A DNA stretch of 64,000 nucleotides from Allocoleopsis franciscana PCC 7113 (GTDB lineage: Bacteria > Cyanobacteriota > Cyanobacteriia > Cyanobacteriales > Coleofasciculaceae): assembly GCF_000317515.1 (NCBI RefSeq), contig NC_019738.1:7342001-7406000 (forward strand), read 5' to 3'. The number at the start of each line of letters is the position of its first letter. The first letter of the stretch is position 1. Positions 17,337-36,844 of the stretch are shown piece by piece. Both the position numbers and the translations under genes were made by a program. The notes below the pieces were generated by a model that was given only the letters and a program-made list of their open reading frames with translations, made no database searches and had not been told where the DNA came from.

Positions 17337-17446
17337 CTTGCAAGATAAAATAATCCCTATCAGGGATTAAAACAACTCATACTCGAAAATGACATCAGCG
17401 ATCGCTTCCCTTGCAAGACACAATAATCCCTATTAGGGATTAACAG
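17337..17446 (-). CRISPR. Isolated two-repeat CRISPR-like element
   Basis: Two 37-base direct repeats (17337-17373 and 17410-17446) agree at 32 positions and are separated by 36 bases. Each has a central palindrome (AATCCCTATCAGGGATT or AATCCCTATTAGGGATT). Read on the minus strand, the first copy starts GTTTTAATCCCTGATAGGG, the shape of many cyanobacterial CRISPR repeats. The stop codon of the Uma2 gene (17433-17435) lies inside copy 2. No cas gene is in the window. A two-copy dispersed palindrome is the alternative. Confidence 0.45.
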
Positions 17447-32488: not shown

Positions 32489-33718
32489 GTGAAGGATGAA
32501 ACCCAAAATTTCAAACTTCAAAGTTCGGACTTCCAACAGTTCTGGTCGCTTGACCCATCTGTAACCTTTCTCAATCATGGTTCTTATGGTGCCTGTCCTG
32601 TGCCAGTCCGACGTGCACAACAGCGATTCCGAGAGCAGCTAGAACGGCAACCCCTGCGCTTCTTTATGCGGGAGTTTGAAGCGTTACTCGATGCTTCACG
32701 CCGCTCATTGGCAGCATTTGTAGGTGCACAGCCAGATGAGTTGGTGTTTGTCCCCAATGCTACAACGGGAGTTAATGCGGTATTAAGGTCGCTCTCCTTC
32801 AACTCAGGAGACGAATTACTCACCACCAACCAAGAATATAACGCTTGCCGTAACGCTCTCGATTTTATCGCGAGTCGCACCGGAGCAACGGTAGTCATCG
32901 CAACAATACCCTTTCCCCTTGAGTCACCGGATCAGGTGATTGAAGCGGTAATAGAACGAGTCTCAGCGAAAACCCGCCTAGCACTGTTGGATCATGTAAC
33001 CAGTAAAACCGGGCTAATCTTTCCCATCCAGCAATTAGTCCATGAATTAGCGGCGAGGGGTGTGGATACCCTGGTTGATGGTGCCCATGCACCAGGAATG
33101 GTGTCCCTGAACCTGCATGAGATTGGGGCTACGTACTATACAGGCAACTGCCATAAGTGGTTATGTGCACCAAAGGGGGCGGGATTTCTCTATGTCCGAG
33201 GCGATCGCCAATCCACGATTCGTCCCTTAACCATTAGTCACGGTGCCAACTCACCCCGGACGGATAAGTCCCGTTTTCAACTAGAGTTTGACTGGATGGG
33301 TACCGACGATCCAACCGCCTATCTGTGTGTCCCGGAAGCCATTGAGTTCCTCGGTTCCCTACTGCCGGGTGGATGGACTCAATTGATGGAAAACAATCGT
33401 GCAAAGGCACTCTGGGCAAGACAAGTCCTGTGTGAAGCATTAGGTGTATCCCCTCCCTGCCCCGATGAAATGATTGGCTCCATGGCTGTTGTACCTTTAC
33501 CCTATGAGTTGTTTGGGTACGAGCAAGCAGGGCAAGTTCGGGAATGGCCTATACTACAGGATCTATTGTGCGATCGCTTCAATATTGAGGTGCCGGTGAT
33601 TCCGTGGACGACACCATTCCAGCAAATGGTGCGAATCTCGGCTCAGCTATACAACACACCAGAGCAGTATCACACTCTCGCCGAAGCACTCATAACACTA
33701 CTATCTGACTTACTTTAG
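32489..33718 (+). CDS. Class V aminotransferase, isopenicillin-N-epimerase-like
   Basis: This is a fold-type I PLP enzyme of 409 residues. Seen in it are FLNHGSYGACP at the start, FVPNATTGVNAVLRSL (PLP phosphate region), LLDHVTSKTGLIFPI, the Asp in VDGAHAPGM and the Schiff-base Lys in GNCHKWLCAPKGAGFL. This is the pattern of the isopenicillin-N-epimerase/ergothioneine-lyase group (class V). The substrate cannot be told. In cyanobacteria these enzymes usually are stand-alone. The start is GTG 32489, 27 bases after the tRNA. The leader is so short that co-transcription with the tRNA is possible. Confidence 0.88.
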   Translation: MKDETQNFKLQSSDFQQFWSLDPSVTFLNHGSYGACPVPVRRAQQRFREQLERQPLRFFMREFEALLDASRRSLAAFVGAQPDELVFVPNATTGVNAVLRSLSFNSGDELLTTNQEYNACRNALDFIASRTGATVVIATIPFPLESPDQVIEAVIERVSAKTRLALLDHVTSKTGLIFPIQQLVHELAARGVDTLVDGAHAPGMVSLNLHEIGATYYTGNCHKWLCAPKGAGFLYVRGDRQSTIRPLTISHGANSPRTDKSRFQLEFDWMGTDDPTAYLCVPEAIEFLGSLLPGGWTQLMENNRAKALWARQVLCEALGVSPPCPDEMIGSMAVVPLPYELFGYEQAGQVREWPILQDLLCDRFNIEVPVIPWTTPFQQMVRISAQLYNTPEQYHTLAEALITLLSDLL

Positions 33719-33834
33719 GCACACACGAAAGAGCATCGGACTAAGCTAGCAATACTGAATTACTCCAAGGGAGCTATTAGTATCAGTGGACACTCTTGCC
33801 ATTAGGGAATGCGTAGCCACATAGTTACAAAAAA

Positions 33835-33859
33835 GCCCTCTTGAGGCAGTTAAGAGGGC
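33835..33859 (-). terminator. Minus-strand terminator-like hairpin 1
   Basis: GCCCTCTT pairs with AAGAGGGC, followed on the minus strand by TTTTTTG. It lies about 32 bases after motif copy 1 (33891-33915), so a transcript of about 50-60 bases could end here. Confidence 0.7.
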
Positions 33860-33890
33860 CTACTTCTACACTCATCTATAAGCCTACTAA

Positions 33891-33915
33891 GCGAGTGTGA
33901 ATAATTTGTGAAATG
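33891..33915 (-). promoter_or_regulatory. Doubled TTCACA promoter-like element, copy 1
   Basis: Minus-strand reading is TTTCACAAATTATTCACAC: two TTCACA boxes 11 bases apart. The second could act as the -35 element, with TAGATG 17 bases downstream as the -10. An 11-base direct-repeat period is typical for PhoB/OmpR-type response regulators. Confidence 0.45.
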
Positions 33916-33955
33916 AAGTAAAAATATCTAAATCTTGCAGAATTTGGCAAAAAAA

Positions 33956-33980
33956 TGCTCCCCCTTGCCACAGGGAGAGC
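33956..33980 (-). terminator. Minus-strand terminator-like hairpin 2
   Basis: GCTCTCCCT pairs (one mismatch) with AGGGGGAGC on the minus strand, followed by ATTTTTTTG. It lies about 40 bases beyond motif copy 2. Confidence 0.65.
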
Positions 33981-34020
33981 TTTAGATAGGTGATTACCGA
34001 AACAATTAAAGTCTATCCAT

Positions 34021-34047
34021 CGAGTGTGAAAAATTTGTGAAAAATGA
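34021..34047 (-). promoter_or_regulatory. Doubled TTCACA promoter-like element, copy 2
   Basis: Minus-strand reading is TTTCACAAATTTTTCACAC, one base different from copy 1 over the core and with the same CTCG following. The -10 element is weak (TAATTG at 16 bases). Confidence 0.4.
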
Positions 34048-34290
34048 CGATTGCACATTTTTCGGTAAAAAGCTAACCCTAAAAGACTCTCTCTACACTT
34101 CTCAATCCGATGGTATTGAACTGAAGAGGGAAGTGAGCAATTTAATATGAAGAAAATGTGAAGAATTTATGAAGTTTGGGAGAACGATATCCCGAAAGTG
34201 TAAAGAACACGATGCCACTTGATCCACTTCTACAAAGCATTGAAGTTACGAAAGCATTGGGAAGACATGTTCTTACAAGTCCCAAGCAAA

Positions 34291-34315
34291 AAGCTCAGCT
34301 ATGATAACTGAGCTT
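34291..34315 (-). terminator. Minus-strand terminator-like hairpin 3
   Basis: AAGCTCAG pairs with CTGAGCTT around 9 bases, with TTTTTG following on the minus strand. It could end the transcript of the small gene at 34634-34855, about 320 bases upstream on this strand. Confidence 0.6.
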
Positions 34316-34633
34316 ATAGAGTATGCTTTTGACTGATAATTGAGTGCGCTCTTCACTCTTCTAGCATGACCTTGAGTTCCTCTATTTTCCTCTGCTCATG
34401 GGACAGTCTTTTTTCTGGCTCACGGCTCACCCCTTACGGGTCTAATCAAGGTATTCTAGAGTTTTTTCTCGTCTCTTCTTCCCCTTGTGCCTTAGGGATT
34501 ATTGACCTCATTGGCTCACAGAGAACTTACATTCCCACATTAATGGTAGTTCATCGCCAATGACACTCATTCTGGAAGGTTGAGTTGTTGAAAACCGCAC
34601 TGGAAAGGTAGTCCGAGTTGACAACAAACTAAA

Positions 34634-34855
34634 CTATACAACAACCATCTGACGAGTCTGACTATCCTGTCTTACTGGATTTTCAAGTGTTAGACTCCCA
34701 TCCTTTAAAAAATTAATCTCAATCGACTCACATCCTAAGCCATATTCATCAAATTGGAATTGAGAATTAAGATACTCAGCGAAAGAAACAGAGGAAACAA
34801 ATTTTGAACCCACACAGCAGGAAACACCGTTAGAGTAGTTAATTTTGACGAGCAT
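34634..34855 (-). CDS. Small protein of unknown function (73 aa)
   Basis: It is short and begins MLVKINYSNG, with a paired Cys (SCCVG) and an acidic region. No family is recognised. Support comes mainly from upstream sequence. On the minus strand, TTCACA at about 34911-34916 is followed after 17 bases by TAGAAT, a good -35/-10 pair, and the -35 is part of a doubled TTCACA element like those in the next kilobase. AGAGAAGAA precedes the ATG as a modest ribosome binding site. Probably a real small regulated gene. Confidence 0.55.
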   Translation of the reverse strand: MLVKINYSNGVSCCVGSKFVSSVSFAEYLNSQFQFDEYGLGCESIEINFLKDGSLTLENPVRQDSQTRQMVVV

Positions 34856-34887
34856 ATAAGTTCTTCTCTGTCTAAGAATGAGCTTGA

Positions 34888-34929
34888 TATTCTAAGATCT
34901 TAGTGGCGCAATGTGAATATTTTGTGATA
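34888..34929 (-). promoter_or_regulatory. Promoter of the 73-residue gene with doubled TTCACA box
   Basis: Minus strand: ATCACA, five bases, TTCACA (-35), 17 bases, TAGAAT (-10). The box overlapping the -35 matches elements at 33891 and 34021, which points to one shared activator. The 5' leader would be about 30 bases. Confidence 0.5.
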
Positions 34930-35019: not shown

Positions 35020-36669
35020 TTATTTGTTTTGGGCGAAATCGTTGAGAATCGCCTCCGCTTGGGGAGGAATTTCAGTAATTAGGCGCATGGGAAAGCGCTC
35101 AGTGGAAACCAATTGAGCATACTCTGGTGTGAGAAAAATAGCGTATTGGCTTGCCTCATTCGTTAGTTGTGCCGCCATCGCCAGCACGATCGCTTTGACG
35201 TAGTTGCGAACTTCAATTGATTGCTCACCGACAATTTCACCGCCACTATATAGGGTACTCGGTTCACGCGCCTGAGCCACAGTTGTGTCGGGGTCTTTCA
35301 CACTCAAATGGGTGGCACCCACAAAACCAACCAGCCATTTGGGAGAGGGGAGTTGATCAAAGGGTATCACCTGCTCCGGTAAAATGGGCGTTGTCTTATC
35401 GGCGGAAGCGGCTGTAATTAAGGTGGGAACGGTCACTTTACTCAAGCCGGTTTCACCAAACAGCAAAGAGGCAGTAGGAGAAAGTGCGATCGCGGCTTTT
35501 ATCCTAGGATCGCCTAGTTGGTAGCGCTCTTCGGGAAGCCCTTCAGCAAAGCATTGTGCATTTTCTCCCAGACTATTAGCCAGCACGTTTCCAGGACAGC
35601 GTTCTTTCAACGAAGTAAGCTGTAACTCTGCGCCGGCAAGGGATAGAGAAGTAGAACCTCCGAAGGAATAGCCCACGATTAGGGTGCGATTGGGTGCTAG
35701 TTTCCCTTGGAGTGGCCCTGATTTTTGGTTGAGCGATTCGAGTTCATCCAGAACAAAGCTAATATCCTTAGGCCGATTTAAAAACTCTTGGGCTTCTAAT
35801 ATTGGAGCTTTCAGCGCGAGTGCTTGCTTCACATGAGTTTCATTGCTGCCCGGATGTTCCAAGGCAACGACAACATAGCCATAGGAGGCAAGATGCTGAG
35901 CGAGGTAACGCAAATCCGTGCGAACTGAACCCAATCCATGGGAAAAGACAATAATGGGTTTATCGGGGGAGGATTGGGTTGACCAATACACATCCACCGG
36001 AATTTCTCGACGGCGTTCCCGATCATTTAGGTTTAACGGCAACACCTGCACGGTGGCATTCCCCGGTTGAGTGGGGTCAAAGGGTAGATTAATCTGAGGA
36101 CGTTGAGCCGCCAGTTGGGGAGCAATTGCCGCCATAAACGCCTGAGATTGCCAAAACGATTTATTAAAGTTTTCAGCAACCAGAAACGCCCGATCCAGAT
36201 TAATTTCCAGTTTGGCAGTGGGATAGGCTTCAATAAAACTAATCAGAGACAGTCCTTTCGCCGCGTTAGCGCCCGAAACGAGTGCTGATTTGACCAATAG
36301 CTCACCTACCCGATCAGAGCGAGAGGTAGCGCTAGCCAGCGCTGAAACCAGGACATTACCACTTGGGGTATCGAGGAAGTTACGCACCGCTACCGGGTTC
36401 ATGTTGAAATTGGCTCGGAATGCGGACAGAAGTGTCTCTTGTTCCTGAGGGCGCAACCTTCGTGCATAAGATTGGAGGCTGGATGAGGCTTTCCCGGTTT
36501 CAGCTAGGGTTTTAAGGTCAGCCAAGGGGATAGATTGGCTGGACGTGCCACGACGCACAACAACGGTTTGAGCCGCTTGCACGGCGGTGGTTGCTCCCTG
36601 GATGAGACTCAGGGAAATCGCGCCAACGACAGCGATCAGGGAGGACTGCCAATGAAAAATAGGTCGCAT
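35020..36669 (-). CDS. Secreted alpha/beta hydrolase with DUF1400 N-domain
   Basis: ATG 36669 starts a signal peptide (MRPIFHWQSSLIAVVGAISL, ending near VQAAQ). The frame runs on upstream to a GTG at 36732. Residues about 35-150 of the mature part match DUF1400, a domain seen in cyanobacteria. An alpha/beta hydrolase follows with PIIVFSHGLGS (oxyanion), nucleophile Ser in VGYSFGGSTS and His in GATHLSV, as in dienelactone-hydrolase-like esterases or lipases. It is probably periplasmic. The substrate is unknown. It stands alone, with tRNA-Gln 176 bases upstream. Confidence 0.88.
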   Translation of the reverse strand: MRPIFHWQSSLIAVVGAISLSLIQGATTAVQAAQTVVVRRGTSSQSIPLADLKTLAETGKASSSLQSYARRLRPQEQETLLSAFRANFNMNPVAVRNFLDTPSGNVLVSALASATSRSDRVGELLVKSALVSGANAAKGLSLISFIEAYPTAKLEINLDRAFLVAENFNKSFWQSQAFMAAIAPQLAAQRPQINLPFDPTQPGNATVQVLPLNLNDRERRREIPVDVYWSTQSSPDKPIIVFSHGLGSVRTDLRYLAQHLASYGYVVVALEHPGSNETHVKQALALKAPILEAQEFLNRPKDISFVLDELESLNQKSGPLQGKLAPNRTLIVGYSFGGSTSLSLAGAELQLTSLKERCPGNVLANSLGENAQCFAEGLPEERYQLGDPRIKAAIALSPTASLLFGETGLSKVTVPTLITAASADKTTPILPEQVIPFDQLPSPKWLVGFVGATHLSVKDPDTTVAQAREPSTLYSGGEIVGEQSIEVRNYVKAIVLAMAAQLTNEASQYAIFLTPEYAQLVSTERFPMRLITEIPPQAEAILNDFAQNK

Positions 36670-36844
36670 GAACCGATTCACCTTCCGCACTTCTAAATTC
36701 GAGCGGCTAATGTCTTGCGATGCGCTCTTCACACAAAGATTACGCTACTCTTCGTTACTCCAGCAATCCCAGAAACGTTTCAATCTGTTACTGATAGGAG
36801 TGAGCTAAATCATTGGCATTTAACGATTGATTCGCTTTAACTAA

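Follow-up and report, generated by a model that had tools for sequence, protein, structure and literature searches.

Introduction

In the 64,000-nt stretch of Allocoleopsis franciscana PCC 7113 DNA analysed here (the window), a doubled TTCACA motif recurs on the minus strand in the company of hairpins followed by T-runs. What does this arrangement encode, and what kind of protein would control it? The original prediction was of four motif copies forming a series of tandem small RNA genes under one OmpR/PhoB-type response regulator, RpaB-like or SphR-like, an interpretation that is partly supported by the analysis below. We favour, with a probability of roughly 0.74, a reading in which two consecutive and independent genes encode untranslated RNAs of ~55 and ~46 nt that belong to a set of six driven by an OmpR/PhoB-type regulator and acting by base pairing. 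Searches of titles and the opening lines of abstracts in the open-licence literature listed no description of this box or of these RNAs in cyanobacteria, and by the same portion of that literature the small RNAs of filamentous, non-heterocystous, mat-forming cyanobacteria seem to be little studied.

Two consecutive units on the minus strand

Inspection of the sequence reveals two short consecutive units on the minus strand at 34041-33829, which share a single layout, TTCACAAATTnTTCACA-N9-TAnnnT, then ~20 nt of leader and a G+C-rich hairpin with a T-run behind it. The two 17-nt boxes (34041-34025 and 33912-33896) have the 11-bp period and the strand originally described, and so do two looser copies of the motif (34173-34142 and 34928-34897); the hairpins with T-runs reported at 34315-34291, 33980-33957 and ~33859-33835 are likewise present in the orientation claimed. 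The features of the region, given in order along the minus strand within each group, are these.

Unit 1
34025..34041, minus strand: box TTCACAAATTTTTCACA, a direct repeat with an 11-bp period, unchanged in the sister species (G001)
34010..34015, minus strand: -10 element TAGACT, 9 nt past the box; TAGGCT in G001
33949..34003, minus strand: predicted small RNA 1, about 55 nt; the unit is 95.7% identical in G001
33957..33980, minus strand: terminator hairpin GCTCTCCCT/AGGGGGAGC, then TTTTTTT, as observed

Unit 2
33896..33912, minus strand: box TTCACAAATTATTCACA, unchanged in G001
33881..33886, minus strand: -10 element TAGGCT, 9 nt past the box
33829..33874, minus strand: predicted small RNA 2, about 46 nt; the unit is 100% identical in G001
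33835..33859, minus strand: terminator hairpin GCCCTCTT / AAGAGGGC, then TTTTTT, as observed

Other features
34897..34928, minus strand: motif copy ATCACAAAATATTCACA, 9 nt ahead of TAAGAT; its G001 counterpart is degenerate
34634..34855, minus strand: 73-aa ORF downstream of the 34908 copy; no Pfam match
34291..34315, minus strand: isolated hairpin with a short T-run, attached to no box
34142..34173, minus strand: loose motif copy TTCATAAATTCTTCACA with TATTAA; its G001 counterpart is degenerate, and no terminator comes before the unit 1 box

The ends given for small RNA 1 assume a start 7 nt past the -10 element and a 3' terminus at the final T of the run. Because the 3' neighbour of unit 2 is a convergent aminotransferase gene (32489-33718, plus strand) and the upstream neighbour of the units is an alpha/beta hydrolase gene (35020-36732, minus strand), units 1 and 2 are taken to be free-standing. 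With a hairpin and T-run less than ~100 nt from the promoter, no ORF and no attachment to a neighbouring gene, they have the layout of intrinsically terminated small RNA genes and would be transcribed as such. Folded singly, the RNAs other than that of unit 1 are only moderately better than their shuffles (z -1.16 to -3.55 over the set). Of 17 units, 11 have pyrimidine runs resembling CCCTC/CTCC; most of these runs fall in the hairpin's 5' arm, and they could pair with ribosome-binding sites. No unit was matched by Rfam 15 at the gathering cut-off, in a search of the window and 19 loci of which 18 are unit-bearing relatives or the window itself. A single Rfam match at 17337-17373 in the window is to CRISPR-DR5, just at the cut-off.

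Between the genome of the window (G000) and the sister species G001, the six units that we find are 95.7, 100, 99.0, 94.0, 94.3 and 96.9% identical, and their 150-nt flanks are 70.1-91.3% identical, the values near 91% arising because some flanks contain a neighbouring unit. One pair of the unit 1 hairpin is U-G in G000 and U-A in G001, and in one G001 orthologue the T-run is interrupted (TCTTTCTT). Further afield, the leader core of unit 2, ATGAGTGTAGAA, recurs together with the complete hairpin-loop in G006. An orthologous unit in G003, G014 and G017 has an almost unchanged leader and a changed hairpin, with one A-U/G-C double change and one U-A/U-G change that leave 24 of 24 cells paired; with three sequences, this pairing does not exceed the shuffle control (182/500). 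The comparison with related genomes called for at the outset separates the motif copies, as units 1 and 2 are kept in G001 whereas those at 34154 and 34908 are found there in decayed form.

The box, the terminator and the family of units

The box and its -10 element occur in the genome more often than chance. A pattern of 17 fixed bases, allowed up to two mismatches, gave 28 matches in G000 (nine of them exact) against one for the reversed pattern that served as control. A scan free of the -10 element, for TTCACA-N(2-9)-TTCACA, listed 17 sites, ten with a spacing of N5, three with N3, one each with N6 and N7 and two with N8; the reversed control gave 11 matches with all spacings pooled, and unit 2 was dropped by the scan as the final base of the pattern had to differ from G. 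At eight of the ten listed N5 sites TAnnnT follows exactly 9 nt on, the opposite of a motif scattered genome-wide without promoter features. Even box positions left free in the search are biased, the middle linker base being T in 88%.

Across the 19 genomes of the family, box plus -10 element with up to one mismatch gave 74 matches in 11 genomes against one in the control, and was absent from the other eight. The exact pattern was found 38 times in 16 of 148 genomes of the order, with no control match, and a stricter pattern including the T-run matched in seven of 388 order genomes, the controls being zero in all 388. Four of these seven (G000, G001, G004 and G006) hold units; the sites in the remaining three (G113, G173 and G381) were judged by eye not to be units.

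The link between box and terminator is statistical. A terminator-like hairpin was sought within 85 nt of the -10 element at 69 family sites, all of the 74 but five in G001, and found at 26, compared with 4/68 upstream, 1/67 at +300, 1/63 at +600 and 1/69 on the opposite strand. Three of the 26 calls are doubtful, L019 and its orthologue L187 having weak hairpins before a protein gene and L224 lying near a gene. The other 23 are unit-like: G000 and G004 have six each, G001 has five, G006 three, and G003, G014 and G017 have one each. A sixth G001 unit is present though below the hairpin criterion, a further unit occurs in Symplocastrum torsivum (L118), and G004, Coleofasciculus sp. S288, has at least six. 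The six in G000 comprise the pair in the window and four elsewhere on C1 (191282, 2148196, 6619602 and 6619727), among which there is a second tandem pair (G000:C1:6619602-6619819).

In most units the leaders and hairpin sequences are unlike one another, although the units at 2148196 and 6619727 have the RNA stretch TTTGGACTACT in common. The comparison took in 22 units, without the L224 site and without the G001 orthologues that nearly duplicate unit 2, 191282 and 6619727; the leaders were too dissimilar to align, and for this reason no covariance model was built. The occurrence of paralogues and orthologues elsewhere strengthens the small RNA reading of units 1 and 2. At the level of sequence we regard the unit layout, the paralogy, the orthology and the statistical association of box and terminator as established, and units 1 and 2 read as real members of a multi-copy small RNA family that is absent from Rfam and has a common operator.

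The putative regulator and other genes behind the box

From head-to-tail hexamers with an 11-bp period, placed 9 nt before TAnnnT without a separate -35 element, we infer a protein of the OmpR/PhoB type. Hexamer direct repeats of 11-bp period about 10 bp before the -10 element are the promoter layout of such regulators, and according to the accessible part of PMC1906773 the PhoB boxes of E. coli are separated by 10 bp from a TAN3T/A downstream. Each gene would have its own promoter, in which the pair of TTCACA half-sites, an 11-bp direct repeat, stands in place of the -35 element 9 nt before TAnnnT, and each RNA would stop at its strong intrinsic terminator. Upon a signal, a winged-helix regulator of the OmpR/PhoB family would bind the direct repeat as a head-to-tail dimer and recruit RNA polymerase as a class II activator, so that activation rather than repression is predicted; it would in this way turn on the whole scattered set of RNAs and a few protein genes, and the RNAs in turn would act on mRNAs through base pairing.

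The RpaB-like or SphR-like identity originally proposed is not supported, as core sequence and period differ from those of HLR1 and the Pho box. Were the sites to belong to RpaB (HLR1), SphR/PhoB (Pho box) or another housekeeping regulator, the RNAs would fall within the high-light or phosphate response, which we think unlikely. Direct repeats upstream of the -10 element are indeed a feature of these regulators too, and in G113 a gene that reads as PstS-like begins 325 nt past an exact box (L308). Judged by excerpts of the cited papers, RpaB is moreover an OmpR-family regulator that acts at a direct repeat near the promoter and has a small RNA, PsrR1, in its regulon (PMC13421787, PMC6202907), and Pho boxes are direct repeats spaced by 11 bp, as here (PMC1906773, PMC11126600). 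The same excerpts, however, give HLR1 as KTTACAWW-N2-KTTACAWW, with a TTACA core and a 10-bp period (PMC13421787), the SphR box as CTTAACCT with a TTAA core (PMC1906773, PMC11126600), and cyanobacterial Pho boxes as three such repeats, and neither core is that of the present box, TTCACAAA-N3-TTCACA with its 11-bp period. The box-bearing genes that we saw do not read as photosystem genes, the PstS-like gene being a single case. To our knowledge regulators of the RpaB and SphR type are nearly universal in cyanobacteria; the box is absent, at up to one mismatch, from the eight family genomes noted above.

CopR of Synechocystis was also considered, a two-component regulator whose repeat is TTCAT-N4-5-TTCAT in the portion of PMC4182526 available. 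Its TTCAT half-site and period of 9-10 differ from those here, the present half-site having C in fifth position. Among the genes at the sites read none stood out as a copper gene, with the exception of a divergent one in G006 that reads as a metal ATPase. CopR was rejected together with RpaB and SphR, as neither sequence nor period fits.

A doubtful candidate for the OmpR/PhoB-type regulator is a putatively autoregulated winged-helix-PAS protein with an N-terminal Trans_reg_C domain (G000:C1:6188291-6189025). Its gene is preceded by a perfect box and -10 element about 120-200 nt upstream in G003, G014 and G017, by a 1-mismatch box just upstream but in opposite orientation in G016, and by a 2-mismatch box in G000, and the G017 protein matches PF00486 with E = 9.3e-19 (the only domain found by search; PAS was assigned by reading). 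Against it, the box faces away from the gene in G000 and G016; near-full-length homologues also occur in G005, G009, G011 and G012, which are free of the box at up to one mismatch, and none is listed for the box-bearing G004, G006, G007, G015 and G018. No near-consensus box lies in the stretch examined in G005, G009 and G012, while the stretches examined in G001 and G011 did not read as a gene start. As the presence of the protein does not follow that of the box, we retain it merely as a rival to the more general OmpR/PhoB-type assignment.

Several protein genes lie behind the box. By reading of the translation these include a PEP-synthase-like gene in G000 and G007; there is a ComFB gene in G014 (PF10719), with genes that read alike in G003 and G017, and a small unnamed protein in G000, G004 and G016. 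An exact TTCACA box stands upstream of two G000 copies (L016 and L019) of an uncharacterised small protein family, core 'SLKNFLT', and again in the distant Acaryochloridaceae cyanobacterium RU_4_10 (L067:6500-7122), which makes this protein family a candidate core target. Pfam gave nothing informative for the box-bearing small proteins, the one exception, DUF2949, following a 2-mismatch site. In genomes beyond the cyanobacterial family, namely G050, G106, G113 and a Nostoc, the box is repeatedly followed by a gene that reads as a CheY-type single-domain receiver (L305, L307, L312 and L069).

Exact box plus -10 sites are also many in Clostridia among the matches listed (L043-L122), several of them upstream of apparent OmpR-type regulator genes and of a recurring gene whose product starts MEEN. 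The number of clostridial sites among those matches suggests a generic OmpR-type operator, with a grammar widespread outside cyanobacteria, and not one that cyanobacteria invented.

Alternatives to free-standing RNA genes

Multi-copy units in tandem and dispersed positions could in principle represent a small repeated element, mobile or extragenic, and not genes. The copies are scattered, several to a genome, G000 has two tandem pairs, and some stretches are shared, such as that of the 2148196 and 6619727 units, but the parts held in common are the box, the -10 element and a terminator of free sequence, the leaders and hairpins mostly differing. All six units are orthologous in G001, no shared element ends are apparent by eye, and the T-run is one-stranded, as seen in the single opposite-strand terminator among 69 sites. 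We consider a repeat element very improbable. A coding role for very short peptides, or a role as leader or attenuator regions of downstream genes, seems to us likewise very improbable: unit 2 has an ATG near its predicted start, within ATGAGTGTAGAA, that is kept in G006, and about 80 nt separate the terminator-bearing site L224 from a gene downstream, but none of the six G000 units has a closed ORF of at least 8 codons, such ORFs occur in only 3 of 17 units overall, all with TTG starts, the reading frame of unit 2 continues into its terminator, and the gene that follows unit 2 is convergent.

Targets and likeness to known systems

For the small RNA genes that we prefer, base pairing with mRNAs would be the expected mode of action. 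Exact complements of two conserved stretches, TTTGGACTACT and the unit 2 loop, are not clearly above reversed controls: one search, of G000 and G001, gave 7 and 4 matches against 11 and 12 control matches, and the other, of G000, G001 and G006, gave 12, 4 and 11 against 10, 6 and 6, the units themselves being counted in each. No conserved target near a start was found among the loci compared, and only one pair of target loci could be aligned between G000 and other genomes, L278/L276 (3 kb), at most a candidate for a translation start. Since most leaders of the paralogues are unlike, a target common to them is not evident from their sequences.

The closest working analogue is the CiaR/csRNA regulon of streptococci. 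As far as the available part of PMC3091779 describes them, csRNAs are intergenic, terminator-ended RNAs of 51-202 nt under one response regulator, CiaR, whose repeat NTTAAG-N5-TTTAAG is followed by the -10 box ten bases on. The present units are alike in being several short, terminator-ended RNAs behind a hexamer direct repeat with an N5 spacer; they differ in the TTCACA hexamer, which is not the CiaR repeat, in the 9 nt to the -10 element and in their cyanobacterial host. A CAU complementary to the start codon, reported in that source for 53 of 61 csRNAs, is by eye not general in the units.

The two systems may nevertheless be counterparts, a proposal to which we give slightly less than even odds. 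An OmpR-type regulator acting at TTCACAAAWTHTTCACA-N9-TAnnnT would control lineage-specific, fast-evolving sibling RNAs, in which box and terminator stay fixed and the RNA between them turns over, and the same operator would also control a small protein core, including an uncharacterised family that has the box in a distant cyanobacterium as well. If so, the operator would drive a nursery of new small RNAs, the second case beside the streptococcal csRNAs of an N5-spaced operator seeding a set of short RNAs, and one knock-out or footprint would expose a regulator that governs at least six RNAs at a time. The predicted 5' ends (34003 and 33874) make testing simple.

NsiR1 of Nostoc offers a second comparison from within cyanobacteria. 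The accessible text of PMC9045159 describes an sRNA of ~60 nt in 12 copies upstream of hetF, seven of them identical, with the DIF1 motif and dependence on HetR. It is similarly a cyanobacterial sRNA in tandem copies, each with its own promoter, whereas the units here occur in pairs, have another box, and form no near-identical array, the RNA parts of 1 and 2 being unlike.

The looser copies and the stray hairpin

The four-copy series of the original prediction is thereby halved. Box, -10 element and terminator come together in two of the four copies, but those at 34154 and 34908 are degenerate in G001, so that tandem small RNA genes under one OmpR/PhoB-type regulator are upheld for 34041-33949 and 33912-33829 and not for these two. 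As third and fourth units they were rejected, there being no terminator after the 34154 copy and the ORF after the 34908 copy being broken. The copy at 34142..34173 is probably no unit, and the stretch downstream of it folds no better than shuffles.

At 34908 the 17-nt spacer from TTCACA to TAGAAT is present as described, but the -10 element that this copy has in common with the others is TAAGAT, not TAGAAT. The small gene said to follow exists as an ORF in G000; the start codon and frame of this 73-aa ORF (34634-34855) are lost in G001, however, and it has no homologue in the other 17 genomes of the 19-genome family set. We regard the copy at 34897..34928 as a decayed or weak promoter.

The hairpin at 34291, formerly counted in the series, belongs to no unit, lying ~580 nt downstream of the 34908 box and upstream of the 34154 copy; compared with G001 its stem is kept and its loop altered. 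The stretch 34640-34290 is without an intact ORF, yet is strongly alike in G001, and a frame within it that ends in HEQRKIEELKVMLEE suggests a decayed gene.
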